Assembly: GCF_025943985.1 (NCBI RefSeq)
Contig: NZ_JAPCWE010000009.1
Coordinates: forward strand, 1-64,000
Length of the DNA: 64,000 nucleotides
Direction: 5' to 3'
From: Anaerorudis cellulosivorans
GTDB lineage: Bacteria; Bacteroidota; Bacteroidia; Bacteroidales; Dysgonomonadaceae
Part shown: positions 2,251-48,153 of the stretch, piece by piece
How positions within the stretch are numbered: the stretch's first letter is position 1
Layout: each line of letters begins with the position of its first letter
The notes under the pieces: model-generated
What the model saw: the letters and a program-made list of their open reading frames with translations, nothing else
Database searches by the model: none
Told to the model about the DNA's origin: nothing
Position numbers and translations under genes: made by a program

Positions 2251-5082
2251 ATGAATGAGGAAACAGAGTACATTAATGTATACGGTGCCCGTGTACATAA
2301 TCTTAAAAATATAGACGTAAAAATTCCGCGCGATGCGCTTACGGTGATCACCGGCTTGAGCGGGAGCGGAAAATCGTCATTGGCTTTCGACACCCTTTAT
2401 GCCGAAGGTCAGCGTCGCTATATCGAAACCTTTTCGGCGTATGCGCGGGGTTTTTTGGGAAAGATCGAGCGTCCCGATGTGGACAAGATTACGGGACTGA
2501 GTCCGGTAATTGCCATCGAGCAAAAGACGACGGGCAAAAATCCGCGCTCAACCGTGGGTACTGCTACGGAAGTATATGATTTTCTTCGCCTGCTTTTTGC
2601 GCGTGCAGGAGAAGCCTATTCGTACCTCACTGGTGAGAAAATGGTGAAATATACCGAAGAGCAGATTCTTGAGCTGATTTTGCAAAAGTATGCCCAAAAG
2701 AAAATCTATATTCTGGCACCTGTGGTTCGCAATCGTAAAGGGCATTACAAGGAGCTTTTCGAGCAGATTCGCAAGAAGGGTTACCTTCATGTGCGGGTCG
2801 ATGGCGAGATTAAGGAGATTCTTCCCGGTATGCGGGTAGACCGATACAAGAATCACGATATCGAAATACTGATCGATAAACTGGTGGTTTCCGACAAATT
2901 TGCCGATCAGTTGAGAGCCAGTGTCCGCACGGCAATGAAGCAAGGACAGGGACTGATACTGATTCAGGATGTCGAAACCGGTGAAGTGCGCTATTACAGC
3001 CGGCAATTGATGTGTCCCACTACCGGATTGTCGTACAGCGAGCCTGCACCGCACAATTTTTCGTTCAACTCGCCTCAAGGCGCTTGTCCACGCTGCAAGG
3101 GCTTGGGAACGGTGGACCGGATCGATATGGAAAAAGTGATTCCCAACCCCGATTTGAGCATTGCTGCAGGAGGAATCGTACCGTTGGGGAAGGAACGAAG
3201 CAGCTTGATTTTCTGGCAAATTGCGGCCATTTGCGAGAAATACGGGGTTACCCTGAAAACGCCCATCAAGGATATTCCGCAAGAAGCCATCGATGAAATT
3301 ATGTATGGCACGAACGAACGGTTGAAAATCAAAAATGAAGCGTTGGGCTATTCCAACTATTTGGTTACCTACGAAGGGGTTGCAAAATATATCGAGATGC
3401 AACAGGACGATGATGCCTCGGCAACGGCACAGAAATGGGCAGGACAGTTTATTACCACATCTGTTTGTCCGGAATGTCACGGACAGCGATTGAACAAGGA
3501 GGCGCTGCATTACCGGATAAACGGGAAAAACATTGCCGAACTTGCCGAAATGGACATCCGCCGGCTGTATGATTGGATGGACGATTTGGATCATCACCTG
3601 CCGGATAAGCAACGCATCATTGCCGGGGAAATCCGTAAAGAAATTCTGTCGCGCTTGCAGTTTCTGTTGGATGTCGGATTGGGCTACCTGTCGCTTTCCC
3701 GCGCTTCGGCCTCGCTTTCAGGTGGTGAGAGTCAGCGCATACGGTTGGCAACGCAGCTCGGTTCGCAACTGGTAAATGTCTTGTATATTTTGGATGAACC
3801 CAGCATCGGACTCCATCAGCGCGACAATCACCGGCTCATCGATTCGTTGAAAAAACTCCGTGATTCCGGTAATTCGATTATTGTGGTGGAACACGATAAG
3901 GATATGATGCTTGCTTCGGATTATATTGTGGATATGGGACCCTTTGCAGGTCGTAAGGGTGGAGAAGTGGTATTTGAGGGAACGCCCAAAGAAATGATTA
4001 CCAAAAATACCCTTACCGCAAATTATCTGAACGGGAAGCTGAAAATTGCCGTACCCGAAAAACGTCGAAAAGGGAACGGAAAAGAATTGATTATTGAAGG
4101 GGCGACCGGCAATAACCTCAAAAATGTGACCGTGAAATTTCCGTTGGGAACATTCATTTGCGTAACCGGCGTTTCGGGAAGCGGCAAATCGACCCTCATC
4201 AACGAAACGTTGCAACCTATTTTGAGCCAAAAGCTTTACCGTTCGCTCAACGATCCGTTGCCCTACAAAGCGGTTTATGGAACAGAACATGTGGATAAAG
4301 TGGTAACCGTGGATCAATCACCTATCGGGCGTACGCCGCGTTCAAATCCGGCAACCTATACCGGGGTTTTCAACGATATTCGTGCCTTGTTTGCCGAGAT
4401 GCCCGAAGCAAAAGTGAGGGGATACAAACCCGGCCGCTTCTCGTTCAATGTGAAGGGTGGGCGTTGCGAAGCGTGTGGCGGCAACGGATACAAAACCATC
4501 GAGATGAATTTTCTGCCCGATGTGATGGTGCCCTGCGAAGTATGTCACGGAAAGCGGTATAACCGCGAAACATTGGAAGTGCGGTTCAAAGGAAAATCCA
4601 TTGCCGATGTGCTGGATATGACCATTAATGCGGCAGTGGAGTTTTTCGAAAATGTTCCTGCCGTGCTTCGCAAAATTGAAGTGTTACAGGAGGTGGGGTT
4701 GGGTTATATCAAACTCGGACAGTCTTCTACGATGTTGTCGGGAGGAGAAAGTCAGCGGGTGAAACTGGCTGCCGAGCTTGCCCGTATCGACACGGGCAAC
4801 ACGCTTTATGTACTCGACGAACCTACCACAGGTTTGCATTTCGAGGATATCCGGGTGTTGTTGTCGGTACTCAACAAGTTGGTCGACAAAGGCAATACCG
4901 TGGTTGTCATTGAGCATAACCTCGATGTGATCAAATGTGCCGATTATATTATCGATCTGGGACCCGAAGGCGGAGAGAAGGGAGGATACATTATGGTTAC
5001 AGGTACTCCCGAACAAATTTGCAAAAACTCCGAAAGTTACACGGCACGATATCTCCGTGAAGAATTGCGTTTACCGTCCTGA
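2251..5082 (+). CDS. uvrA: Excinuclease ABC subunit A (UvrA)
   Basis: A 943-residue damage-recognition ATPase of nucleotide excision repair, the usual length for UvrA. It has two ABC ATPase modules: Walker [10 protein letters not shown] at 35-43 and GVSGSGKST near 640, with signatures [12 protein letters not shown] and [12 protein letters not shown]. The C-terminal zinc finger is complete (CEAC ... CEVC). The N-terminal one reads CPTT ... CPRC, so the second of the four expected cysteines is replaced. This may be a lineage trait, because the flanking [13 protein letters not shown] segment is otherwise well conserved. It acts in the cytoplasm with UvrB and UvrC, which are not in this window. 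Mfd, the transcription-coupled partner, is encoded at 53.4 kb. Confidence 0.97.
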
Positions 5083-7313: not shown

Positions 7314-9389
7314 TTATTGCATCCGTTTGATGATGCTGTACGATTCTACGATACCCAATTCGCCTGCTTTACGCAAATCGTCGAGTCCCGCCGTCGATTC
7401 ACCGATGGAAAGCCGCGCCAGCCCGCGATTGAAATAAGCTTCGGCAAAATTGGGCTCGCGCTTGATGGCTTCGGTATAATCGTCGATAGCTGCCCGGTAA
7501 TCTTTTTCTATCGTATAAATCTCTGCCCGGTTGTAATAGGCATAGAAAAAGTCGGGGTCGAGTTGGAGTATTTTTTCGTAATCCTTGAGGATGGCGTCAT
7601 AACCGATGATTTCCTTAGAAACCTCAGGTACCTTTGGCAGGTTTTGACCTGTAAATTTTTCGTTGCGCGAAGGAAGTTTTATTTTCAACGGGGAATCGCT
7701 GCCTTTAAATCCCTCCGGTTGTTGCGCCATTGCGTCCACTTCCATTTGTTTGCTTCGGATCACGGCACGGGCAAAATAAGCTATCGTCATGTCGGGTTTC
7801 AGCGAAATCGTTGTGTTGATATCCTGCAACGCGTTGGCATAATCCTGCACCAGCATGTAATCCAATCCCCGGCCGAAATACAGCATAGCTTTATTCGGCT
7901 CATTATCGATCTGCTTCGAATAGTTGTTGATGGAGCGAAAATGGGTTTGAATCTGCAATTCGTTTAATCCTGCCTCATTGTTGGTAATTCTCAGTTTCCA
8001 TGCCAATCCCGATTCATGGTTTGCCTTATCCAGTTCCTTCAGGAAATAAACAGGACGTTGCACTTCATAAGGCTTTTCGTAGTAAGTGAGCACAAATTTG
8101 GGCTGAAGCTCAACCCGTGCATTGATGTTTTGCACCTTACCTCTGCTTCTGTTCCGATAATTGGTCTTCTGTTCCGTTTCTTTGTCGGCAACCACCAGCA
8201 TGTTGAACTTTTCGATATCGTTGTCCGTTGTTTCACGGGTTTCTTTAGGTTGGGTGTCTTTGTCGAGTTTTGCAGGATTGGTTTCGTTCTCCGATTTTTT
8301 ACCGAATTCCGCCTCTTCGTTTCTTGCCAGATAGAAATCTTTTTCCGCACCCGCCAAATCGCCCATCTTGCGTTTCAACTCCGACCGCATGTAGTAGCCC
8401 TGAAAGAAATCGGGATGTTCCCTGAGCACCACATTCAAATCGGCCAGTGCCCCCTCGTAGTTGTTGATCTCGTTGTTGAGCAATGCCCTGTTGAGATAGG
8501 CAATGGTATTGCCGGGTTCCAGTTCGAGCACTTTGTCGAAATCTTCGATAGCGCGGTTGTTATCGCCCACTTGCGCACGCAACAGTCCACGGTTGAATCT
8601 GGCTATCAGGTTGTTGGCATCCATTTCGAGCACCCTGTCGTAGTCGGCCATTGCTCCGCGCAGATCGTTCAGGCTGTATTTCACCAACCCGCGGTTAATG
8701 TAATTTCCTTCGAAATAGGGATCCAGTCGTATGGCTTCGTCCAAATCGGCAAGCGCTTTGTTGTACTCTTTCAATTGATAATGCAGTAGTCCTCTTGCTG
8801 CAAACGATTGCGAAGTATAGGGATCGATTTCGATGGCTTTGTCGTAATCGGCAAGGGCAAGGGTGGTGTCTTTTTGTTCGAGATGCATTTGTGCGCGAGC
8901 CAGGTAGCCGGGAACATAGTCGGGAAACAAATGAATCAATTCGTCGAAATATTTTCCGGCTTCCTTATATTGTTTCATTTGCATTTGCACAATCCCCATA
9001 TTCACCAGTGTCAGTTTGTCTTCCGGGAAAAACTCGAGACTTCTCGCGTAATCTTCCGCTGCTTCGGCAAATTTTTCCTGGTTCTGACGTGCAGCGGCAC
9101 GCAGTTGATATGCCGCCATCCAATACGGATTGCGTTCGAGGCACAGTGTGCAGTCGTCTTCTGCCCCCTTGAAATCGTCGAGCATAAACTTGGCCAATCC
9201 CCGGTAATAATAGGGGTCGGCCAGGTAGGGCTTGGCACTGATTACCTGGTTGAAATATTGTATGGCGAGAACATAATCTTCAAAATAAAGGGCATTTCGC
9301 CCTATCATCATCACCCTGTCGGTATTCACTTGAGCCGGAAGCGACAGAGAACACAATAAAATCAGAAAAGCAAGTATGTTTTTTTTCAT
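7314..9389 (-). CDS. Large secreted TPR-repeat protein
   Basis: A 691-residue protein with a signal peptide (first ~19 residues, MKKNILAFLILLCSLSLPAQ) and two blocks of tetratricopeptide repeats. The N-terminal block (about 20-350) has some nine TPR units with the signatures YYRGLAKF, AADYARSLEFFPED and NRGLVKYSLNDLRGAMADYD. A charged linker (about 350-410) and a non-repeat domain (about 415-480) separate it from a C-terminal block (about 480-691, RAEIYTIEKDYRAAIDDYTEAI). It probably acts as a periplasmic or outer-membrane scaffold. The upstream in-frame TTG (9398) is less likely than the ATG at 9389, which begins the signal peptide. It follows the usher gene after 124 bp but has its own promoter match (9438-9445), so membership in the pilus operon is uncertain. 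Confidence 0.8.
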   Translation of the reverse strand: MKKNILAFLILLCSLSLPAQVNTDRVMMIGRNALYFEDYVLAIQYFNQVISAKPYLADPYYYRGLAKFMLDDFKGAEDDCTLCLERNPYWMAAYQLRAAARQNQEKFAEAAEDYARSLEFFPEDKLTLVNMGIVQMQMKQYKEAGKYFDELIHLFPDYVPGYLARAQMHLEQKDTTLALADYDKAIEIDPYTSQSFAARGLLHYQLKEYNKALADLDEAIRLDPYFEGNYINRGLVKYSLNDLRGAMADYDRVLEMDANNLIARFNRGLLRAQVGDNNRAIEDFDKVLELEPGNTIAYLNRALLNNEINNYEGALADLNVVLREHPDFFQGYYMRSELKRKMGDLAGAEKDFYLARNEEAEFGKKSENETNPAKLDKDTQPKETRETTDNDIEKFNMLVVADKETEQKTNYRNRSRGKVQNINARVELQPKFVLTYYEKPYEVQRPVYFLKELDKANHESGLAWKLRITNNEAGLNELQIQTHFRSINNYSKQIDNEPNKAMLYFGRGLDYMLVQDYANALQDINTTISLKPDMTIAYFARAVIRSKQMEVDAMAQQPEGFKGSDSPLKIKLPSRNEKFTGQNLPKVPEVSKEIIGYDAILKDYEKILQLDPDFFYAYYNRAEIYTIEKDYRAAIDDYTEAIKREPNFAEAYFNRGLARLSIGESTAGLDDLRKAGELGIVESYSIIKRMQ

Positions 9390-9437
9390 TGATTGCAAAT
9401 TGTCTTTCCTTCAAAAAAATAACCTTGTTTTATTTTT

Positions 9438-9513: not shown

Positions 9514-12501
9514 TCAGTCGGTCGGATTCTCCTGCTTTTTCTCTTTTTTGATAACCGGGAAACTGTCGATGCCTTCTGTCCATAGCGATTTTCTAAACCG
9601 ATCCACTGCGGCACGATCGGCAAATTTTCCCATACGCACTTTATACAGCTTGTTTTCGTAGTCGATCCAAACAGGCAATCCAAAGCGGTATTTCAGCATT
9701 TCAGCAAATTGTTCGGCATAGGTCCTGTTTTGGAAAGATCCCAATTGAAGCGAATAAAACTCCTCTTCCACGACTTCTTTGACATTTGTTGTTGGAGATA
9801 TCGGCTGTTGTTGTGAGGCAGTTGTTTTTTCAGCTTCTTTTGTTTTTTCGGCTTCTTTGAGTGTTCCTTTTTCGATTTCCGTTTTTTCCAACGGTTTTTC
9901 CACAACCAATTGCAGGTCGTCCACGATATCGCCCAACACATCGGGTTCGATTTCAAAAGGCACTTCGGCAACAGAAGCCTTCATGCCGAGTTTGTTCAAT
10001 TGTGTCGAATCGACCCGGGCATAGTATTTACCCGGCGACAGGCCGAGATAGGTAAAACTGCCATCGTAGTCGGTAATGGTCGAGGCTCTCTTTTCTCCTT
10101 TTTCGGTATAAAAATTCACTACCATTCGTTCGAGGCCTTTACGGGCGGTTCCTTCTTTTATGAAAACCCATCCGTTCACTTCTCCCATCGGCAGTATAGG
10201 CACATCGATCCGTTGAAATTGATTGGGACTCGCAAAAAGGCGAAGATTTTTATGTGCAATGCGATACGAAATCTGTTCCAGGCTTTTATCGTTGAGCGTC
10301 AGAAGATAGTCGGTATACGGTTCGAGTCCCACAATACGGATGAGCGAATCCTTGCTGCCTTGAATGATTCTTCCGCCCGTCATTCTCACGGCAAGACCCG
10401 ATGCCAAGGGTTCGTTGCTGTCTTTTGTGCCGTTATGGTCGATATCGATAAAAGGAGCAATGGTCAACCCTGCCGTACCAACCGAAGGGCGGTTGTCGGC
10501 ATGCGCATATCCGTTGCCGCTGCCGAAGGCGAAACTTCCCTGTGCTCCCTGCGTTGTCATGAAATCGTTGTTGGACAGGCGGGTCGACAAATTGACTTGT
10601 GAGAACGGCAGGGTCCACCGAAAAGAAAGGGTAGCGGCGCGATAATCCGATTGAAAATTGTTTTCCCCCGCAAAGGACAGATATCCCTGTCGACCAATGC
10701 GTTTTTCGATTTCAGCTCTCAATGTGTTCACCTTTTTGTCTGTAAAGCTCACCTGGCTTTGCAGTCGCGAGGTCACCCCTTTCCACATGGGCAGCCCGAT
10801 TCCCAAATTGCCGTAGACGTAGGGACTTTCGCCGTTCATCCAGTTGGCATAGGCGCTTATGTTGGCATTAACCCTTTTGATATAAGACGAAAAGGTGAGA
10901 TTGGCCGTGTTGTAGGTGAAGGTTTTGTAAACATTTTGCCGGAACGACAGACGCGAGAAAGCCGTAAATTTAGGCAGACGTATGGGTAACGAAAGGGTCG
11001 CCTGTCTTTCTTCCCGATAGCTGACCAGAATGGCTTTTTGTTCCGGGTCATAGTGGGTATAATTCAGCTCAAACGACAGTCCCGACGGGAGCCGGTAATT
11101 TGCCAGCACATTTGTCCGTACCCCTTTGGCATATTCGGCGTTGAGGAGCAGATTCCCGAAAGGGGATATCGAGGCGTTTAGGAAAGGAATTTCTTCATTT
11201 CCGGTAAGGGATGACAGGTATTCCATGCCGCCGCCTACCGTGATATAGCGGTTGATACCGTATTTGGTTTCGGCTTTGCCAAAGCGCGATCGCTCCTTGT
11301 CGAGTACGACACCATAGCTCACGTTGTATTCCCATTCGCCTTTGGGTAAAAAATTAAAGGGAATGTTCAGGTATTGCCGTTGAATGCGTTCTTCGCCGTA
11401 AGGTCCGTAAAACTTGAGCATCACTTCCGACGAACCGTAAACCAGCGGAACATTGAAGCTGTAGAATCCCGTTGCGTCGGCCGTCTGATAATCCACGATT
11501 ACGTTGTTCACGTAAAGCTCCACGGTCCAACCCGGTTCGGTGTGATCGGCAATGGTGTATTCGCCAAACGAACGGCGATAACGTGTTGAAGCGTTGGTGA
11601 CACTGATTCCCGAAACGGGATCGTAAATCGATGAGATAGATGACGGAGCAATTCTGCCTGCTCGTACCTGGCGGACGGCTTTTTTCTCGTTATCGACCCA
11701 CCGCCAGTAATAGTTTATGCTGCGATTATTCAATTTGGTGAGCGATGAGTAATACCATTGCAGGTTGGTTTCGCCTCCCAATAGTTCGGCTCCGGTTTTT
11801 AACCACAATTGGGTATTGTTTTTACTTGCCGTGTTTTGAGTCGCGTTGAGTGCCCAGTCCACCATGCCGAAGCGCCAGAGGTTGTGCTTCTGATTTAAGG
11901 TGGTATCGGCCTTTATTTGTCCTTTCAGTTGATCGATGTTTTTCCGATATTGTTGAAGCTTCATCTCGCGGATAACCGGCAGTTCGAAGTCGGGTTTTAC
12001 GGTTATCGTGAGACTCCTGAAATCGAATTGGCAATGCAAACCGAATATTTCACCGAAAAGCCGGTGATCCATATACAGTTTGTTTCCCGTGTTGATCAAT
12101 TGGCCGTCTTCGACGGGAAAATCTCTTTCGCCCAAAAATACCTTCTTGTTGCGGTTGTCGATCAGGTAGCAGTTTTCTTCTTTTGCTATAAATCCGCTAA
12201 TGGAGTCGAGCGATGCCGCGGGTTCAGCTTTTATTTGCAGGAACCGGAAAAATTCCGTGACAGGCAGCAGAAGCCGCCCCGATTCGTATTCGTACAGCGG
12301 ATTGAGCGTGACGCCTCCCAAGCGTTCTACCCGCACGTTCACGGGGATTTCTTCCCTTTCGCTCTCTTGTGCATATATTTTCAAGGGGTTCGTGATGAAT
12401 AATGTAAACAACAGAAATCGGGATAACCGGATGTAAAAGTCGAATTTTTTTAATGTGAATTCACCATTAGGCAAGAAGGTGATGGGGTTTTGGTTCATCA
12501 A
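9514..12501 (-). CDS. Usher-like outer-membrane protein with C-terminal SPOR domain
   Basis: A 995-residue protein. A signal sequence lies at about 22-45 (LLFTLFITNPLKIYAQ). Residues about 50-165 form an N-terminal periplasmic domain. A long beta-rich segment (about 190-690) reads like a fimbrial usher barrel. Its plug-like section ELYVNNVIVDYQ ... GFYSFNVPLVYGSSEV ends in a YGPYGEER stretch and is followed by repeated alternating strands (EYNVSYGVV, GINRYITVGGGMEYL). A prealbumin/SdrD-like module follows at about 700-790 (FIDIDHNGTKDSNEPLASG), then a carboxypeptidase-regulatory-like module (about 800-890), a Lys/Glu-rich linker, and a SPOR domain (about 920-990, FYSLQLGSFQNRTYAEQFAEML). SPOR domains bind denuded peptidoglycan. 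It starts 8 bp after a DUF4402 gene, next to a PapD-like chaperone. A chaperone-usher export pore is the best reading. The SPOR fusion in place of classical usher C-terminal domains is unusual. Confidence 0.75.
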   Translation of the reverse strand: MMNQNPITFLPNGEFTLKKFDFYIRLSRFLLFTLFITNPLKIYAQESEREEIPVNVRVERLGGVTLNPLYEYESGRLLLPVTEFFRFLQIKAEPAASLDSISGFIAKEENCYLIDNRNKKVFLGERDFPVEDGQLINTGNKLYMDHRLFGEIFGLHCQFDFRSLTITVKPDFELPVIREMKLQQYRKNIDQLKGQIKADTTLNQKHNLWRFGMVDWALNATQNTASKNNTQLWLKTGAELLGGETNLQWYYSSLTKLNNRSINYYWRWVDNEKKAVRQVRAGRIAPSSISSIYDPVSGISVTNASTRYRRSFGEYTIADHTEPGWTVELYVNNVIVDYQTADATGFYSFNVPLVYGSSEVMLKFYGPYGEERIQRQYLNIPFNFLPKGEWEYNVSYGVVLDKERSRFGKAETKYGINRYITVGGGMEYLSSLTGNEEIPFLNASISPFGNLLLNAEYAKGVRTNVLANYRLPSGLSFELNYTHYDPEQKAILVSYREERQATLSLPIRLPKFTAFSRLSFRQNVYKTFTYNTANLTFSSYIKRVNANISAYANWMNGESPYVYGNLGIGLPMWKGVTSRLQSQVSFTDKKVNTLRAEIEKRIGRQGYLSFAGENNFQSDYRAATLSFRWTLPFSQVNLSTRLSNNDFMTTQGAQGSFAFGSGNGYAHADNRPSVGTAGLTIAPFIDIDHNGTKDSNEPLASGLAVRMTGGRIIQGSKDSLIRIVGLEPYTDYLLTLNDKSLEQISYRIAHKNLRLFASPNQFQRIDVPILPMGEVNGWVFIKEGTARKGLERMVVNFYTEKGEKRASTITDYDGSFTYLGLSPGKYYARVDSTQLNKLGMKASVAEVPFEIEPDVLGDIVDDLQLVVEKPLEKTEIEKGTLKEAEKTKEAEKTTASQQQPISPTTNVKEVVEEEFYSLQLGSFQNRTYAEQFAEMLKYRFGLPVWIDYENKLYKVRMGKFADRAAVDRFRKSLWTEGIDSFPVIKKEKKQENPTD

Positions 12502-12509
12502 AACATTTT

Positions 12510-12989
12510 TTATTCTTGAACGAATGTTACGGTGAAGGTTCCTCTGTAGTTACCCGGCGGGTTGACGGTAAGGCTTTGTACTTTTAATGTCGCTCCGATA
12601 TGTACCGGATTGATGAAAGGGCTACCAGGTGTCGTTATAAATGTATTTCCGGGTTTATCGGTGGTAAAATTGGTAACGGTCATTTTTCCCTTACCTTCTG
12701 TATGGGTTAAGGTTGCATTGGTTGGAAGCACAATGTGAACTATGCGATTGGGAATTAATCTGACTTCAAATCGTGCAGGAAGCGGGGTAATGTCGGGGAA
12801 TGCAACGATGGTTCCTGTGACCGTTCGGTTTCCGTAAGGAGACACAATAATATCGCCTCCCGAAAATCCCGGAGAGAAAGAACCAAACGACAAGGGTTGA
12901 ACAACTCGTACCTCCATTTGATTTGGAGGAGAAGAATAAGCCACTTCCTGTATTTGTGAAAAAAGGTTCGGAATTGCAATGGCGTACAA
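12510..12989 (-). CDS. DUF4402 fimbrial-type subunit with interrupted signal peptide
   Basis: The fourth DUF4402-type subunit of the locus, placed between chaperone and usher. The mature part has the family pattern: the PLSFGSF segment near the N-terminus, a central beta-rich core, a VHIGATLKV strand and a closing YRGTFTVTF strand. The listed frame begins at a TTG (12989), which gives a signal peptide without a charged n-region. Reading further upstream in the same frame gives a good signal peptide (KKHKFLYLFLFLYAIAI), but the frame has no ATG and is closed by a stop. The only suitable ATG (13057, 14 nt after the chaperone stop) is in another frame. It joins this frame after one extra A at a run of seven A (13018-13024). 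The subunit lacks the Ala/Thr-rich N-terminal extension of its three paralogs and may be a tip or adaptor subunit. Confidence 0.65.
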   Translation of the reverse strand: MYAIAIPNLFSQIQEVAYSSPPNQMEVRVVQPLSFGSFSPGFSGGDIIVSPYGNRTVTGTIVAFPDITPLPARFEVRLIPNRIVHIVLPTNATLTHTEGKGKMTVTNFTTDKPGNTFITTPGSPFINPVHIGATLKVQSLTVNPPGNYRGTFTVTFVQE

Positions 12990-13017
12990 GAATAGAAATA
13001 GATACAGAAATTTATGC

Positions 13018-13024
13018 TTTTTTT
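13018..13024 (-). other. A7 homopolymer linking an ATG frame to the DUF4402 frame
   Basis: On the minus strand the ATG at 13057 opens MLRIIVSIHRGKK, then meets GGG followed by seven A. One added A, or a -1 slip, continues as KHKFLYLFLF, the hydrophobic core of the downstream gene's signal peptide. It could be a phase-variation tract, a slippage site or a sequencing error. Confidence 0.55.
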
Positions 13025-13071
13025 CCCTCTATGAATGGATACTATGATTCGCAGCATGTATTCATAACAAT

Positions 13072-13917
13072 TTACGGCAACTGCAGTTCTTTTTCGTCGT
13101 ACACCAGCGGTTTGGCTTCATTGGCATCGGTAAAACGCACAACGAGTTTACCGTTGTTCAAATTTACTCCTTCGGGAACAGTTAACGGCATAGAAAAACG
13201 GCGTACCGTATTGGGCGTATATACCGCAATTCCTCGTACTTTTCCCACATTGATGCGTTCTCCGGTGGGTGATACGTAATCCACCGTCAAATCGCCGTAA
13301 ACCGACTTGGTGCCTTGACGGTTCAGTACCAGTTTCAGTACCGGAGACTCCTTTTCTTTTTGTTCAAGTGCCAATTCGCCGATGGTGCACGATGCCGACA
13401 GGTTGCCGATGCGTACGATCACCGGGATGGATATGCCGTAAATGGGAATAAGCCGAATACCAATCCCGGTTGTATCGGTAGCTGCCGTTTCGTTTCCCTG
13501 AGGTTCCTCTTTGGGTATAGCCCTGAAATACAGGTGCGAACGATATTCTCCTTCTTCCAAACCGGGTCTTCTTCTTACCTGGATGCGCACTACTTGCGAT
13601 TCGTTGGGTGCCAATTCGATGGAACGAGGGAAAAAACGCAACATGGGCGAAGCAAATTTTTCGCCCTGCATCGGTTCGGTGATTTCCTGCAAATTGCCAT
13701 CTTCGGTCATTCGGTATTCGATCAGAGAAATGGAATAAAAGGCCGTGTCTTGTCCTATATTGGCCACAACGATTTCTTCAATTTGTTTGTTGCCTTCCAG
13801 CACCACCCGATGCGGTGTGATCAACAAATCGCCCTGTGCCGATGCAAACAGCGGACATAACAAAAGTAAAATAAAAAAACCGAGTCCTGCTTTTATTTCT
13901 TTACTTACATTCTTCAT
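13072..13917 (-). CDS. PapD-like periplasmic pilus chaperone
   Basis: A 281-residue protein with a signal peptide (about 1-28, FFILLLLCPLFASAQ). The first Ig-like domain begins with ITPHRVVLEG; Arg37 sits where PapD-family chaperones carry the basic residue that anchors the pilin C-terminus. The segment ELAPNESQVVRIQVRRRPGLEEGEYRSHLYFRAIP (read in two parts around residues 105-140) matches the conserved F1-G1 region and the EGEYRSHL motif of pilus chaperones. The second Ig-like domain runs to the end. It would bind DUF4402 subunits in the periplasm and pass them to the usher encoded two genes later. A terminator lies just upstream, so its expression depends on read-through from the subunit genes or a separate weak promoter. 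Confidence 0.82.
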   Translation of the reverse strand: MKNVSKEIKAGLGFFILLLLCPLFASAQGDLLITPHRVVLEGNKQIEEIVVANIGQDTAFYSISLIEYRMTEDGNLQEITEPMQGEKFASPMLRFFPRSIELAPNESQVVRIQVRRRPGLEEGEYRSHLYFRAIPKEEPQGNETAATDTTGIGIRLIPIYGISIPVIVRIGNLSASCTIGELALEQKEKESPVLKLVLNRQGTKSVYGDLTVDYVSPTGERINVGKVRGIAVYTPNTVRRFSMPLTVPEGVNLNNGKLVVRFTDANEAKPLVYDEKELQLP

Positions 13918-13924
13918 TCGTTTT

Positions 13925-13960
13925 AAAAAAATTAAAAGGGCAGCTTAAGACCGCCCTTTC
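13925..13960 (-). terminator. Terminator between pilin gene and chaperone gene
   Basis: The minus strand reads AAAGGGC, an 11-nt loop, GCCCTTT, then TTAATTTTTTT. The 7-bp stem (13935-13941 with 13953-13959) plus T tract lies between the stop of the DUF4402 gene and the chaperone start. It is probably a leaky terminator that makes subunits more abundant than the assembly proteins. Confidence 0.75.
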
Positions 13961-13976
13961 GCTAAAAAGAATAGTT

Positions 13977-14495
13977 TTATTGGTGGGTGACAATTACGTC
14001 GAATGTTCCTTCATATAATCCGGCAGGTTGATTAGCTGGCACAGTGAGTTTTCCACCTACATTGAATGTTTCTTTTCCTGTAGCATCAAAAACCCCTGTA
14101 GCGCTATGAACGAAATTAGCGATGGTCATCGTCTCGGTGCCACCTGATAAAGTTAGTGTAACAGAGTTGTTGGCAGGTAAAGTAACAAAATAGTGTCCCT
14201 TGGCTTTTCCATGTGCTGTAAACTTGGCGGGTTGGCCAAGATTAGTAGCTAAAAGAACAACACCTCCCGTTTGGGATCTGGTTCCATCTGTTTCCATTGA
14301 TACAGTACCAGCAATTATCCCACTTGCAAAGGTACCAAAATCAAGATCTGCGTCCTTGTCAATGGTAATAACTTCGACAACAGTAGCTTTTGCAGTTGCA
14401 GTGGCACTTGCAGTAGCTCCGTTTTGTGCTTTCATCTGTTGTGTTGCAAGCATCATTACGAATAGGCTTGCCAATAAAAATACTGTTTTTTTCAT
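13977..14495 (-). CDS. DUF4402 fimbrial-type subunit
   Basis: A 172-residue secreted protein. A signal peptide (about 1-24, LLASLFVMMLATQQMKAQ) ends in a signal peptidase I site with no lipobox cysteine. The mature N-terminus is a Thr/Ala-rich alternating strand (ATASATATAKATVVEVITI), followed by DADLDFGTF, a core beta sandwich, and a final GLYEGTFDVIV strand. This resembles the arrangement of CFA/I-type pilins, where the N-terminal strand completes the next subunit. The terminator right behind it marks it as the last gene before the assembly genes. It has two close paralogs upstream and may be a major subunit. DUF4402 function is not established. Confidence 0.78.
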   Translation of the reverse strand: MKKTVFLLASLFVMMLATQQMKAQNGATASATATAKATVVEVITIDKDADLDFGTFASGIIAGTVSMETDGTRSQTGGVVLLATNLGQPAKFTAHGKAKGHYFVTLPANNSVTLTLSGGTETMTIANFVHSATGVFDATGKETFNVGGKLTVPANQPAGLYEGTFDVIVTHQ

Positions 14496-14592
14496 ACATT
14501 TTTGTTTTTAATTGTTAGTAAACGGTTTGGTTTTTTAATTTGATTGTTGATATATTTGAGTAAATTAATCCTTAAGTATAAAAAATGTTGAA

Positions 14593-15117
14593 TTAATAGT
14601 AGGCAACGGTTATTTTCAAGTCGGTTGTGTTTTTATACGTACCTAGTGCCTGATAATTATACACATGTAACGTTGCGCCTATTTTAATGATCTTCTCTCC
14701 GTTTCCATCCAATGTAGAAGGCGATGTGATGCTATTGTAGGTAAAATTATCCACCAACATCGACGATCCGCTGCCATCAGTATTGATAACGCTGAAAGAA
14801 TAAGGGAAAGTGATCGTAAAGGTAGCATTAGGGTCGCCGGTAACTTTAAACTGTGCAGCAGTAATGGATTCTCCTGTTACGGTTGCTAATTGAACGCCTG
14901 TAGCGGCTCGCTGGTTGTTAACATCTACGGTTACCGTTCCCCCTCCATTTCTTGGGGAAAACATGCTTCCAAAATTCAAATCGGCTTCTTTGGTAATTTG
15001 AAGTCCGCTGACAATTTTGGCTGTTGTTTCGGCTGTTGCGCTTATTTGAGCATTCACATGCTGCGTTAAAAAAAGGATTACGAAAAGTGCGGTCAGGGGA
15101 AAAATGAACTTTCTCAT
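14593..15117 (-). CDS. DUF4402 fimbrial-type subunit
   Basis: A 174-residue secreted protein with a signal peptide (about 1-24, FPLTALFVILFLTQHVNAQ), the N-terminal strand ISATAETTAKIVSGLQI, the family motif KEADLNFGSM and a terminal strand YKNTTDLKITVAYY. It contains an internal Gly-rich turn (RNGGGTVTV). It is a diverged paralog of the genes on either side, 97 bp upstream of the next one and 415 bp downstream of the previous one. A TAnnTTTG element at 15198-15205 suggests that transcription can begin here. Confidence 0.78.
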   Translation of the reverse strand: MRKFIFPLTALFVILFLTQHVNAQISATAETTAKIVSGLQITKEADLNFGSMFSPRNGGGTVTVDVNNQRAATGVQLATVTGESITAAQFKVTGDPNATFTITFPYSFSVINTDGSGSSMLVDNFTYNSITSPSTLDGNGEKIIKIGATLHVYNYQALGTYKNTTDLKITVAYY

Positions 15118-15532
15118 AAAGAGGTTTTAATTGGTTGTTCGCGTTGAATTTTGTCTGAAAAAAAGAACGAACTGTCTTTTTCTTTAAAAAATCGCTGCAA
15201 ATTTAGCCTATTGTTTTCGACCTGTAAAATATTAATATAAAATTAAGGTTAAATAATCATAAACTTTGCTTACGATACATCGCAGTCATTTTTCAGGCAG
15301 TATAAATAGGCTCTTGTTAAGCCGTTTTTTTGTTTGCAATATACCTTCCTGTCTTCTCCGTACCTTCTCCGTACCAAGGCTGCACCATCCTCGCTCCAAG
15401 TCCGCTCCGGAATTTAGCTTTTTTTGCTGAAAAAATGCAGGTGAGTTTTATCCCACATCAACAACATCCGACGTTGTTGTCCCTGCCTTAAAGCGAGCAA
15501 GAAGCGAGCATGAAACAGCCAAGAGGTAGATA
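15118..15532. repeat. Repeat-rich intergenic region between two DUF4402 genes
   Basis: This 415-bp stretch has no convincing gene. It holds an exact 11-bp tandem duplication (CTTCTCCGTAC at 15353-15363 and 15364-15374), a second 11-bp-period repeat (AAGCGAGCA at 15491 and 15502), and an inverted repeat CAACAAC / GTTGTTG (15459-15465 with 15473-15479). All three minus-strand frames stay open for more than 30 codons around 15300-15410, with no start codon or family resemblance. It could be a dispersed intergenic repeat, a degraded element or a structured RNA. Confidence 0.5.
15198..15205 (-). promoter_or_regulatory. Promoter element of the middle DUF4402 gene
   Basis: Minus-strand TAAATTTG matches TAnnTTTG about 80 nt before the ATG at 15117. 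No clear upstream TTG is seen. Confidence 0.4.
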
Positions 15533-16060
15533 TTATTGATAGGCTACCGTTACTGTCATTCCGCTTTCGTTTGTATATACGCCTTCTTCCTGGTTGGCAT
15601 CAACGTGAAGCGTTGCCCCAACGTTGATGATTTGTTCTCCGTTTTCCGACAATGTACCCGAGGTTGCAGGTGTGGTGGTGATATTATCGACTAGCATCAT
15701 TTCTGTTCCCCCTTCGCGGGTAATGATGATCGATGCTGGAACGGCGATGGAATAGGAAGCATTCGGTAAACCGGAAACCGTGAATCGAGCTGCGGTTATA
15801 GTTCCCTGTGACGATGTTGGCAAGGTAACATCGCCTGAGTGGGTTCGTGAATTGTCGGTTTCGATTTTTACGGTACCGCTGCTTGATCCGGCAATGATAT
15901 TTCCAAAGGAAAGATCGGTTGTTTTGGCGATTTTGATGGGTGCAACAATGGTTGCCGTTGCTTTTGCTGTAGCTGAAGCACTCGGAGATTGGGCACACAA
16001 TTGGTGCGCTGCAAATTCAATTATAAAAAAGCATGTTAACAAAAAAATCAACTTTTTCAT
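15533..16060 (-). CDS. DUF4402 fimbrial-type subunit
   Basis: A 175-residue secreted protein and the first gene of the locus. It has a signal peptide (about 1-24, LTCFFIIEFAAHQLCAQ), an Ser/Ala/Thr-rich N-terminal strand (SPSASATAKATATIVAPIKI), the motif TTDLSFGNI, then a core with VGATLHVDANQ and a closing strand MTVTVAYQ. A cysteine occurs in the signal peptide at -3 from the predicted cut, but its context is not a lipobox, so it should be secreted by signal peptidase I. It is the closest in pattern to the 13977-14495 paralog. Confidence 0.78.
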   Translation of the reverse strand: MKKLIFLLTCFFIIEFAAHQLCAQSPSASATAKATATIVAPIKIAKTTDLSFGNIIAGSSSGTVKIETDNSRTHSGDVTLPTSSQGTITAARFTVSGLPNASYSIAVPASIIITREGGTEMMLVDNITTTPATSGTLSENGEQIINVGATLHVDANQEEGVYTNESGMTVTVAYQ

Positions 16061-46077: not shown

Positions 46078-46164
46078 TTTCTTTATATAGCAAGATGCAT
46101 TTCTTTTTTATTCGCTTTTTTGAATCCTGCAATATTTAATTATTTATTTTATTTTGATTTGATT

Positions 46165-48153
46165 ATGAAAGATTATCGGCATCTCTCTCCATCTGAAATT
46201 GATACCTTGAAAAAAAACGGTTGTACTCACCACGATTGGTCTCTTGTTTGGGTCAAAGAGAATTTTAAGCCTGATTATATTCGCGACACTGTATTTTCAG
46301 GGGAAATTAAGTTAGGCGTTTTGGAAAATGTTTTTTTTCTGGAAGGCGGTATAAAAAAACACGCTTGCATAAACCGTGCGGTAATCCACCATTGCGAAAT
46401 CGGAGACAATGTGGTCATCGAGAATGTTCAGAATTATATTGCCAACTATTGCATTGGCGATAATTGTTTTATTCAAAATGTGGATGTTATTTTGGTAGAA
46501 GGGAGAACAACATTTGGAAATGGGTTGAAAGTAAACGTGTTAAATGAAACGGGAGGGAGAGAAGTTCATATTACCGATAAATTATCGGCACATTTTGCCT
46601 ACATTTATTCCTTATATCGTCATCGTCCGAAACTTATCGACCGGATGAAAGGTATTATCGATTTTTACAGTGAGAAACATGCGTCGGATAGGGGAACAAT
46701 TGGCAACAATTGCGTGATCGTAAATGTGGGATATATTAAAAATGTGAGGATTGGTGCGTTTTGTAAAATAACCGGGACTATGAAATTGAAAAACGGGAGT
46801 ATCAATAGTAATAAAGAGGCACCTGTTCACATTGGGAGGAATGTGATAGCACGTGACTTCATCGTATCTTCGGGCTCGCGGGTAGATGGGGGAACGATTA
46901 TCGAACGCTGTTTTATTGGTCAAGCCTGTCATTTGGATCATGGTTATTCGGCTTCCGATTCGCTGTTTTTTAGCAATTGCCAGGGTGAGAATGGCGAAGC
47001 ATGTGCTGTGTTTGCCGGTCCTTATACCGTAACGCATCATAAATCAACCTTGCTTATTGCGGGGATGTTTTCATTTATGAATGCAGGATCGGGCTCTAAT
47101 CAGAGTAATCATATGTATAAACTGGGGCCGATCCACCAAGGTATTGTGGAACGGGGAGCCAAGACTACCAGTGATTCTTATGTGTTGTGGCCCGCTAAAG
47201 TAGGTCCCTTTTCGCTCATCCTGGGAAGACATTATAAACATTCCGATACCTCAAACCTGCCCTTTTCGTATTTAATTGAAAAAGACAATACCACATATGT
47301 GGCACCTGCGGTCAACCTGCGGAGTGTAGGTACGATACGCGATGCCAAAAAATGGCCGGAACGCGATAGAAGAACAGATCCTCATCGGCTCGATTTTATT
47401 AATTTCAATCTGTTGAGTCCTTATACGATTCAAAAAGTGTTTGAAGGAATCAGAATATTGAAACATCTTCAACATACTTCGGGCGAAGCATCGGAAATTT
47501 TCACTTACCAGAGTTGTATCATTACCAAATCGGCTCTCAAAAGAGGATTGGAATTATACTATATTGTTGTGCATAAGTTCTTGGGAAATTCGCTAATAAA
47601 AAGGTTAGAGAAAACACCTTTTAAAAGCAATGAAGAAATAAGGAACCAACTGAAACCCACTACCGATATCGGATTGGGTGAGTGGATCGATCTTTCGGGA
47701 TTGATTGCTCCCAAATCTGAAATCGATCTTTTGCTTAATCGGATTGAAAATGAAGAAATAACCACTTTGGAAGAAATAAACAATGAGTTTAAGCGACTTC
47801 ATGAAAATTATTACGAGTATGAATGGACCTGGGCATGGGAGAAAATCCGGGAATTTTATGAGGTTACGGAGGAAACCATCACAGCTCAGAATGTTATCCG
47901 CATTGTTGAAAAATGGAAAGAAAGCGTGATTAAACTGGATGAGATGATATATGACGATGCAAAAAAAGAATTTTCATTATCATTTAAAACAGGTTTTGGT
48001 GCCGATGGAGATATTCAGGAACAGGAACTGGATTTTGAATATGTGCGGGGTGTGTTTGATAAAAACCCTTTCGTGATGGCTACCTTACAACATATTGAAG
48101 AAAAAAGAGCATTGGGAAATGAACTTATTGATAGAATAAAAAGCATAAAATAA
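46165..48153 (+). CDS. DUF4954 left-handed beta-helix protein
   Basis: A 662-residue protein of the Bacteroidota family DUF4954. The N-terminal two thirds consist of hexapeptide-type repeats forming a left-handed beta helix (ACINRAVIHHCEIGDNVVIENV; NCVIVNVGYIKNVRIGAFCKI; VHIGRNVIARDFIVSSGSRVDGG, each read in part), as in acyl- and nucleotidyl-transferases. The C-terminal third is helical (about 400-662). The catalytic role is unknown; a sugar-nucleotide or acyl transfer function is possible. The ATG at 46165 is preferred over a TTG at 46120. Confidence 0.82.
   Translation: MKDYRHLSPSEIDTLKKNGCTHHDWSLVWVKENFKPDYIRDTVFSGEIKLGVLENVFFLEGGIKKHACINRAVIHHCEIGDNVVIENVQNYIANYCIGDNCFIQNVDVILVEGRTTFGNGLKVNVLNETGGREVHITDKLSAHFAYIYSLYRHRPKLIDRMKGIIDFYSEKHASDRGTIGNNCVIVNVGYIKNVRIGAFCKITGTMKLKNGSINSNKEAPVHIGRNVIARDFIVSSGSRVDGGTIIERCFIGQACHLDHGYSASDSLFFSNCQGENGEACAVFAGPYTVTHHKSTLLIAGMFSFMNAGSGSNQSNHMYKLGPIHQGIVERGAKTTSDSYVLWPAKVGPFSLILGRHYKHSDTSNLPFSYLIEKDNTTYVAPAVNLRSVGTIRDAKKWPERDRRTDPHRLDFINFNLLSPYTIQKVFEGIRILKHLQHTSGEASEIFTYQSCIITKSALKRGLELYYIVVHKFLGNSLIKRLEKTPFKSNEEIRNQLKPTTDIGLGEWIDLSGLIAPKSEIDLLLNRIENEEITTLEEINNEFKRLHENYYEYEWTWAWEKIREFYEVTEETITAQNVIRIVEKWKESVIKLDEMIYDDAKKEFSLSFKTGFGADGDIQEQELDFEYVRGVFDKNPFVMATLQHIEEKRALGNELIDRIKSIK

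Follow-up and report, generated by a model that had tools for sequence, protein, structure and literature searches.

What is assembled by a gene cluster in which four genes encode DUF4402, a Pfam domain of unknown function, next to a periplasmic chaperone and a large outer membrane protein in a member of the Bacteroidales? The window, by which we mean the whole 64,000-nucleotide stretch of DNA analyzed (Anaerorudis cellulosivorans, contig NZ_JAPCWE010000009.1, positions 1 to 64,000), carries such a cluster on its minus strand at 9514–16060. Three DUF4402 genes are transcribed first; beyond a terminator follow the gene for a chaperone, the last of the four DUF4402 genes, and finally a gene of 995 codons. 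Bacteroidales, and Bacteroidota in general, are known for type V (FimA/Mfa1) pili. An earlier note, made from the sequence, had read this gene order as that of a chaperone–usher (CU) pilus. The order is confirmed here by Pfam matches, the terminator, and structural models, and the CU gene set is supported by folds, sequence signatures, and gene linkage. We consider it very probable that the locus encodes a divergent CU system that lies nearest to the archaic branch. The SPOR tail of the usher, the archaic affinity, the division of the subunits into two classes, and the wide distribution of the system are additions to the earlier note.

The DUF4402 subunits resemble chaperone–usher pilins

Subunits 1 (175 residues, 15533–16060), 2 (174 residues, 14593–15117), and 3 (172 residues, 13977–14495) match PF14352 (DUF4402) at 111, 91, and 96 bits, respectively, and subunit 4 (12510–13022) does so at 87 bits; all four are encoded on the minus strand, and the family cut-off is 25.2 bits. 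No other DUF4402 gene occurs in the 2.8-Mb genome, and the four proteins match no further Pfam family. Subunit 1 has a signal peptide, a predicted N-terminal donor-strand extension, and a C terminus that ends in VAYQ. An AlphaFold2 model of subunit 3, built on 35 relatives, has a mean pLDDT of 95.1, and its residues 1–20 are unpaired and form no strand. When this model was compared with the Protein Data Bank (PDB) by Foldseek, the first 20 rows were all CU pilins, many of them Caf1 or CfaB, with HdaB, SafA, and CsuA/B among the further pilin matches. Most rows returned by VIA-align were likewise CU pilins, headed by the pilin domains of PapG, CsuA/B, and FimG. As modeled, subunit 3 has an incomplete immunoglobulin (Ig) fold with a free N-terminal donor strand. 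A literature search for DUF4402 or PF14352 found no paper, most subscription journals being outside its reach.

Type V pili are the usual pili of the order Bacteroidales, and their subunits are made as lipoprotein precursors and assembled without an usher. That the DUF4402 subunits are FimA/Mfa1-like lipoprotein pilins of this kind is nevertheless hardly credible: a lipobox is lacking in all four subunits, as the earlier note had stated, the FimA and Mfa2 family domains have no match anywhere in the genome, and the fold matches are to CU pilins. The kind of surface structure that CU pilins would build here is a separate matter. Caf1, the best Foldseek pilin match, forms a capsule-like fiber, and the locus is without a large two-domain tip adhesin. 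Both points favor CU machinery that makes an amorphous coat or capsule-like mesh, as do Caf1 and spore coat U proteins, and no discrete pilus. We regard this alternative as unlikely, as the presence of several subunit classes, one of them tip-like, suggests an ordered fiber.

The usher-like protein and its SPOR tail

The last gene of the cluster (9514–12501, minus strand) encodes a protein of 995 residues whose only Pfam matches are SdrD_B and a C-terminal SPOR domain (9556–9762, minus strand; PF05036, E of 3e-11). Its structural model (pLDDT 82) was assigned by DSSP, following the signal peptide, an N-terminal domain, 6 strands, a plug, 18 strands, C-terminal β domains, and SPOR. The 24-stranded barrel region spans mature residues 164–613 (10528–11877, minus strand) and matches the PapC and FimD pores in VIA; the plug domain, between barrel strands 6 and 7, spans mature residues 264–340 (11347–11577, minus strand) at a pLDDT of 46–70. 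The best solved matches of the model are FimD and PapC, with a Foldseek E value of 2e-26 against 2e-10 for the next unrelated structure and a VIA Z score of 19.3 against 14.6 for the next unrelated barrels. The outer membrane barrel that the earlier note had proposed for this protein is thus modeled as an usher.

At least 63 of the 106 full-length relatives of the usher carry SPOR at the C terminus, and in one deep-branch relative the usher ends in an OmpA domain instead. SPOR-domain proteins characteristically bind denuded peptidoglycan, and these tails support a putative link between the usher and peptidoglycan. On a Pseudoalteromonas plasmid (L180), separate SPOR genes at 8109–8747 and 2807–3292 flank the DUF4402–chaperone–usher operon, one overlapping the usher gene at its end, the other lying before the operon. 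An usher variant of 1856 residues with long extra sequence was also observed (L041:4569–10127 and L117).

The chaperone

The gene at 13072–13917 (minus strand) encodes a 281-residue candidate for a two-domain, PapD-like periplasmic chaperone. It is separated from subunit 3 by a strong intrinsic terminator at 13960–13934 (minus strand), the best in the region, with an 11-pair stem, a 5-nt loop, and a T-rich tail. The match of the window protein to PapD_N is weak (18.1 bits against a cut-off of 23); its identification draws on an archaic profile match and on residue conservation as well. In its family, 12 of 29 members match PapD_N at E ≤ 0.001, the best at 2.7e-8, and a Polaromonas homologue lies above the cut-off (25.3 against 23).

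Four residues (R10, R99, R173, and Y206 in mature numbering) are invariant or nearly so among the 29 relatives: R99 is kept in 29 of 29, Y206 is invariant, and R173 is nearly invariant. R10 aligns with the cleft arginine of FimC. R99 aligns with Arg89 of EcpB and with the arginine on strand F1 of archaic chaperones, and the R173/Y206 pair of domain D2 can be matched to the archaic anchor by order only. In non-classical systems, Arg89, Arg174, and Tyr196 of CsuC anchor the C terminus of the subunit (PMC4654587).

Two classes of subunit and a probable tip

The DUF4402 subunits of this and related loci fall into two classes. Those that are not adjacent to the usher gene have an aromatic residue at position −2 (87 of 93) and a glycine at −14 or −16 (80 of 93), a C-terminal signature that matches that of Escherichia coli pilins. 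In the usher-adjacent class, the glycine is retained (83 of 89) and the penultimate aromatic is found in only 13 of 89, being mostly replaced by glutamine or another residue; subunit 4 ends in QE. The two classes differ at the N terminus also. The median distance between the predicted start of the mature protein and the FG motif is 18 residues in usher-adjacent subunits compared with 26 in the others, and this stretch is short and proline-rich in the former, whereas it has alternating small residues in the latter. The usher-adjacent subunit is therefore probably one without a donor-strand extension, and a subunit that accepts a strand and does not donate one can be placed only at the tip.

Single-domain tips without a donor strand are known in SafD and DraD. 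The short, proline-rich N terminus of the usher-adjacent DUF4402 subunits recalls tips of this kind, and SafD, DraD, and HdaB, three such pilins, are among the structural matches of the DUF4402 fold. They have no sequence relationship to it, and the tip position of subunit 4 is a prediction.

Distribution and gene linkage

Among 198 genomes of the order, DUF4402 is found in 28 and the usher in 30, and all 28 are within the 30; four further genomes, which matched the usher query by SPOR alone, are not counted among the 30. The association has a Fisher p of 5e-32, with kinship not corrected for. Of 296 phylum genomes, 47 carry DUF4402, and every one of these matches the usher as well; 45 of the 47 have both on one contig, no more than about 6 kb apart (hand counts). 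A DUF4402 gene directly precedes the usher gene in 55 of 59 named loci. The co-occurrence of DUF4402 with the usher, whose rarity would have refuted the reading of the earlier note, extends to every DUF4402-bearing genome of both samples.

A species-level genome collection holds 295 relatives of the usher, and the best 80 of the 295 are Bacteroidota, mostly environmental metagenome-assembled genomes (MAGs). The nearest named ones belong to the Bacteroidales MAG UBA4179 (91%) and to Seramator thermalis, Dysgonomonadaceae (75%); within the family to which the window belongs, neither of the two genera sampled has the system. The chaperone–usher pair is also present on plasmids of Polaromonas, Novosphingobium, Sphingopyxis, and Pseudoalteromonas, with an annotated DUF4402 gene on 5 of 7 plasmids. 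The plasmid ushers are labeled carboxypeptidase-like, SdrD B-like, or hypothetical, and not usher.

Many relatives have, between the chaperone and subunit 4, a gene for a large secreted protein that is glycine-rich and lectin-like and has a type A sorting tail of the type IX secretion system (T9SS). Examples, with glycine-rich, Laminin_G_3, or GEVED domains, are L037:2558–6238, L086:2701–7296, L106:2798–7315, and L142:5276–7297. The position of these genes could mean that the usher-like protein exports other cargo, such as the large T9SS-type proteins, and that DUF4402 is merely co-encoded. We find this very improbable. No such insert is present in the window, whose genome gave no match when searched for type IX sorting tails; T9SS-type proteins are absent from the plasmid operons as well, and they have a T9SS tail of their own. 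DUF4402, on the other hand, folds like a pilin and consistently accompanies the usher.

Relationship to known chaperone–usher branches

To which branch does the system belong? Profiles of the usher, chaperone, and pilin, with signal peptides removed, were compared with profiles of the known branches and with shuffled controls. The archaic sets came from plasmid operons with SCPU pilins, and the classical and alternative sets came from E. coli K-12; profile depths are unequal. Shuffled maxima over all branch comparisons ranged from 14 to 28. For the usher, the archaic profile scored 105.7 over 615 columns (shuffled maximum 22), the classical profile 70, and the alternative branch, represented by a single sequence, 27. 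The chaperone scored 57.0 against the archaic profile (shuffled maximum 21), 38 against the classical, and 26 against the single alternative sequence; the pilin scored 35.0 against the archaic profile (shuffled maximum 14) and 11 against the classical (control 17). The system thus lies nearest to the archaic branch. Archaic and classical ushers, however, score 401 against each other, and because the best score here is 106, the usher falls well outside the archaic–classical pair. Searching the PDB by sequence with each of the three profiles brought up no relative from a CU system; matches to SdrD and to a phage coat protein were discarded as common β domains or chance.

A classical origin of the chaperone was also considered and rejected. 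With mature sequences only, the score was 23 compared with shuffled scores of up to about 18, and with better trimming it was 38 compared with 21; both are under the archaic score.

Archaic systems (Csu of Acinetobacter; SCPU, PF05229) match all three profiles best, and their chaperones have the F1 arginine that aligns with R99 and, judged by order, a possible counterpart of the R173/Y206 pair in the anchor described in PMC4654587. In contrast, the pilins here are DUF4402 and not SCPU, which is above its cut-off in none of the 296 phylum genomes; the usher has a SPOR or OmpA tail and no PF00577 match; and the system resides in Bacteroidota, which are not included among the hosts of archaic systems listed in PMC4654587. 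With the classical systems (type 1 Fim and P), the locus shares the modeled usher architecture of 24 strands and a plug, the pilin signature of glycine at −14 and an aromatic at −2, and the cleft arginine aligned to R10. Unlike them, it has no match to the Usher, PapC, or PapD_C families, and its pilin profile has no classical match. The alternative branch (Ecp) shares the arginine aligned to R99, and EcpC too has a carboxypeptidase-regulatory-like C-terminal domain, whereas an overall profile match is absent, the Ecp usher giving none with one Ecp sequence compared, and TcfC and CooC_C domains are lacking here. We lean toward a fourth CU branch with DUF4402 pilins and an usher anchored to peptidoglycan by SPOR or OmpA. 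It would be widespread in Bacteroidota, occur on plasmids of alpha-, beta-, and gammaproteobacteria, and be coupled in many Bacteroidales to a surface protein secreted by the T9SS.

Evidence that weighs against a functional chaperone–usher system

Several observations count against the assignment of a CU system to this locus. The protein at 9514–12501 has no Usher, PapC_N, PapC_C, or TcfC match, and no protein in the 198 genomes of the order exceeds the PF00577 cut-off, the best score being 19.9 bits in one relative; FimD, the positive control for this search, scored 761 bits. The first match of the chaperone to the classical family (E of 1.9e-6) was inflated by signal peptides. The VIA Z score of the pilin model, up to 7.5, falls within the tool's warning range. 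Since the pilin E and Z values are modest, the weight of the structural comparison rests on the specificity of the match list.

The remaining difficulty is the start of subunit 4. The earlier note's fourth DUF4402 gene stands as far as its family match is concerned, yet no in-frame ATG precedes its signal peptide, the only candidate being a TTG at 12989. Within 12950–13060 (minus strand), an ATG-started upstream frame and the frame of subunit 4 converge near a stretch of seven A residues. This could stem from assembly error, from decay, or from phase switching. Because subunit 4 is without a normal in-frame start, the locus may work poorly in this genome or be subject to switching. We think it somewhat unlikely that it has decayed or been phase-switched off. 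The change of frame around the seven-A run upstream of the signal peptide and the intact start of subunit 4 in the closest relative (L073), whose own chaperone gene is frame-shifted in its assembly, favor this alternative. The other genes, however, are open over their full length, the sequence of subunit 4 is well conserved, and a homopolymer assembly error would look alike.

A model for assembly

Regardless of how the start of subunit 4 came about, the CU reading suggests how the system could work. We infer strand exchange, the order of the subunits, peptidoglycan binding, and fiber formation. The DUF4402 subunits would be exported by Sec, be cleaved by signal peptidase I, and arrive in the periplasm as incomplete Ig-like domains. 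There, the G1 strand of the PapD-like chaperone would complete each subunit while its cleft held the subunit C terminus. The 24-stranded, plugged usher would receive chaperone–subunit pairs and join the subunits by donor-strand exchange. Because subunit 4 appears to have no room for a donor strand, it would go first and form the tip, and subunits 1–3, with their N-terminal donor strands, would form the stalk. The SPOR tail of the usher may fix the site of assembly to peptidoglycan, and the terminator after subunit 3 may hold expression of chaperone and usher below that of the pilins.

Surroundings of the locus

Bacteroides-type promoter motifs are no more frequent in the region than expected by chance. 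Downstream of the usher lies a gene for a 694-residue TPR-repeat protein (7314–9398, minus strand); since this adjacency is kept only in the closest relative, we place the protein outside the module. Elsewhere in the window, 46120–48153 (plus strand) encodes a protein composed of DUF4954 and DUF6819, both domains of unknown function.

Implications

Overall, the usher of this system is invisible to current usher models, and surveys based on such models will therefore miss it. If the reading is correct, CU pili exist also in a phylum whose familiar pili are of type V. Such pili would lie outside the host range listed in PMC4654587. DUF4402, so far a domain of unknown function, would gain a likely one. 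A peptidoglycan-anchored usher and single-domain tips that apparently lack a donor strand are ideas that can be tested directly.

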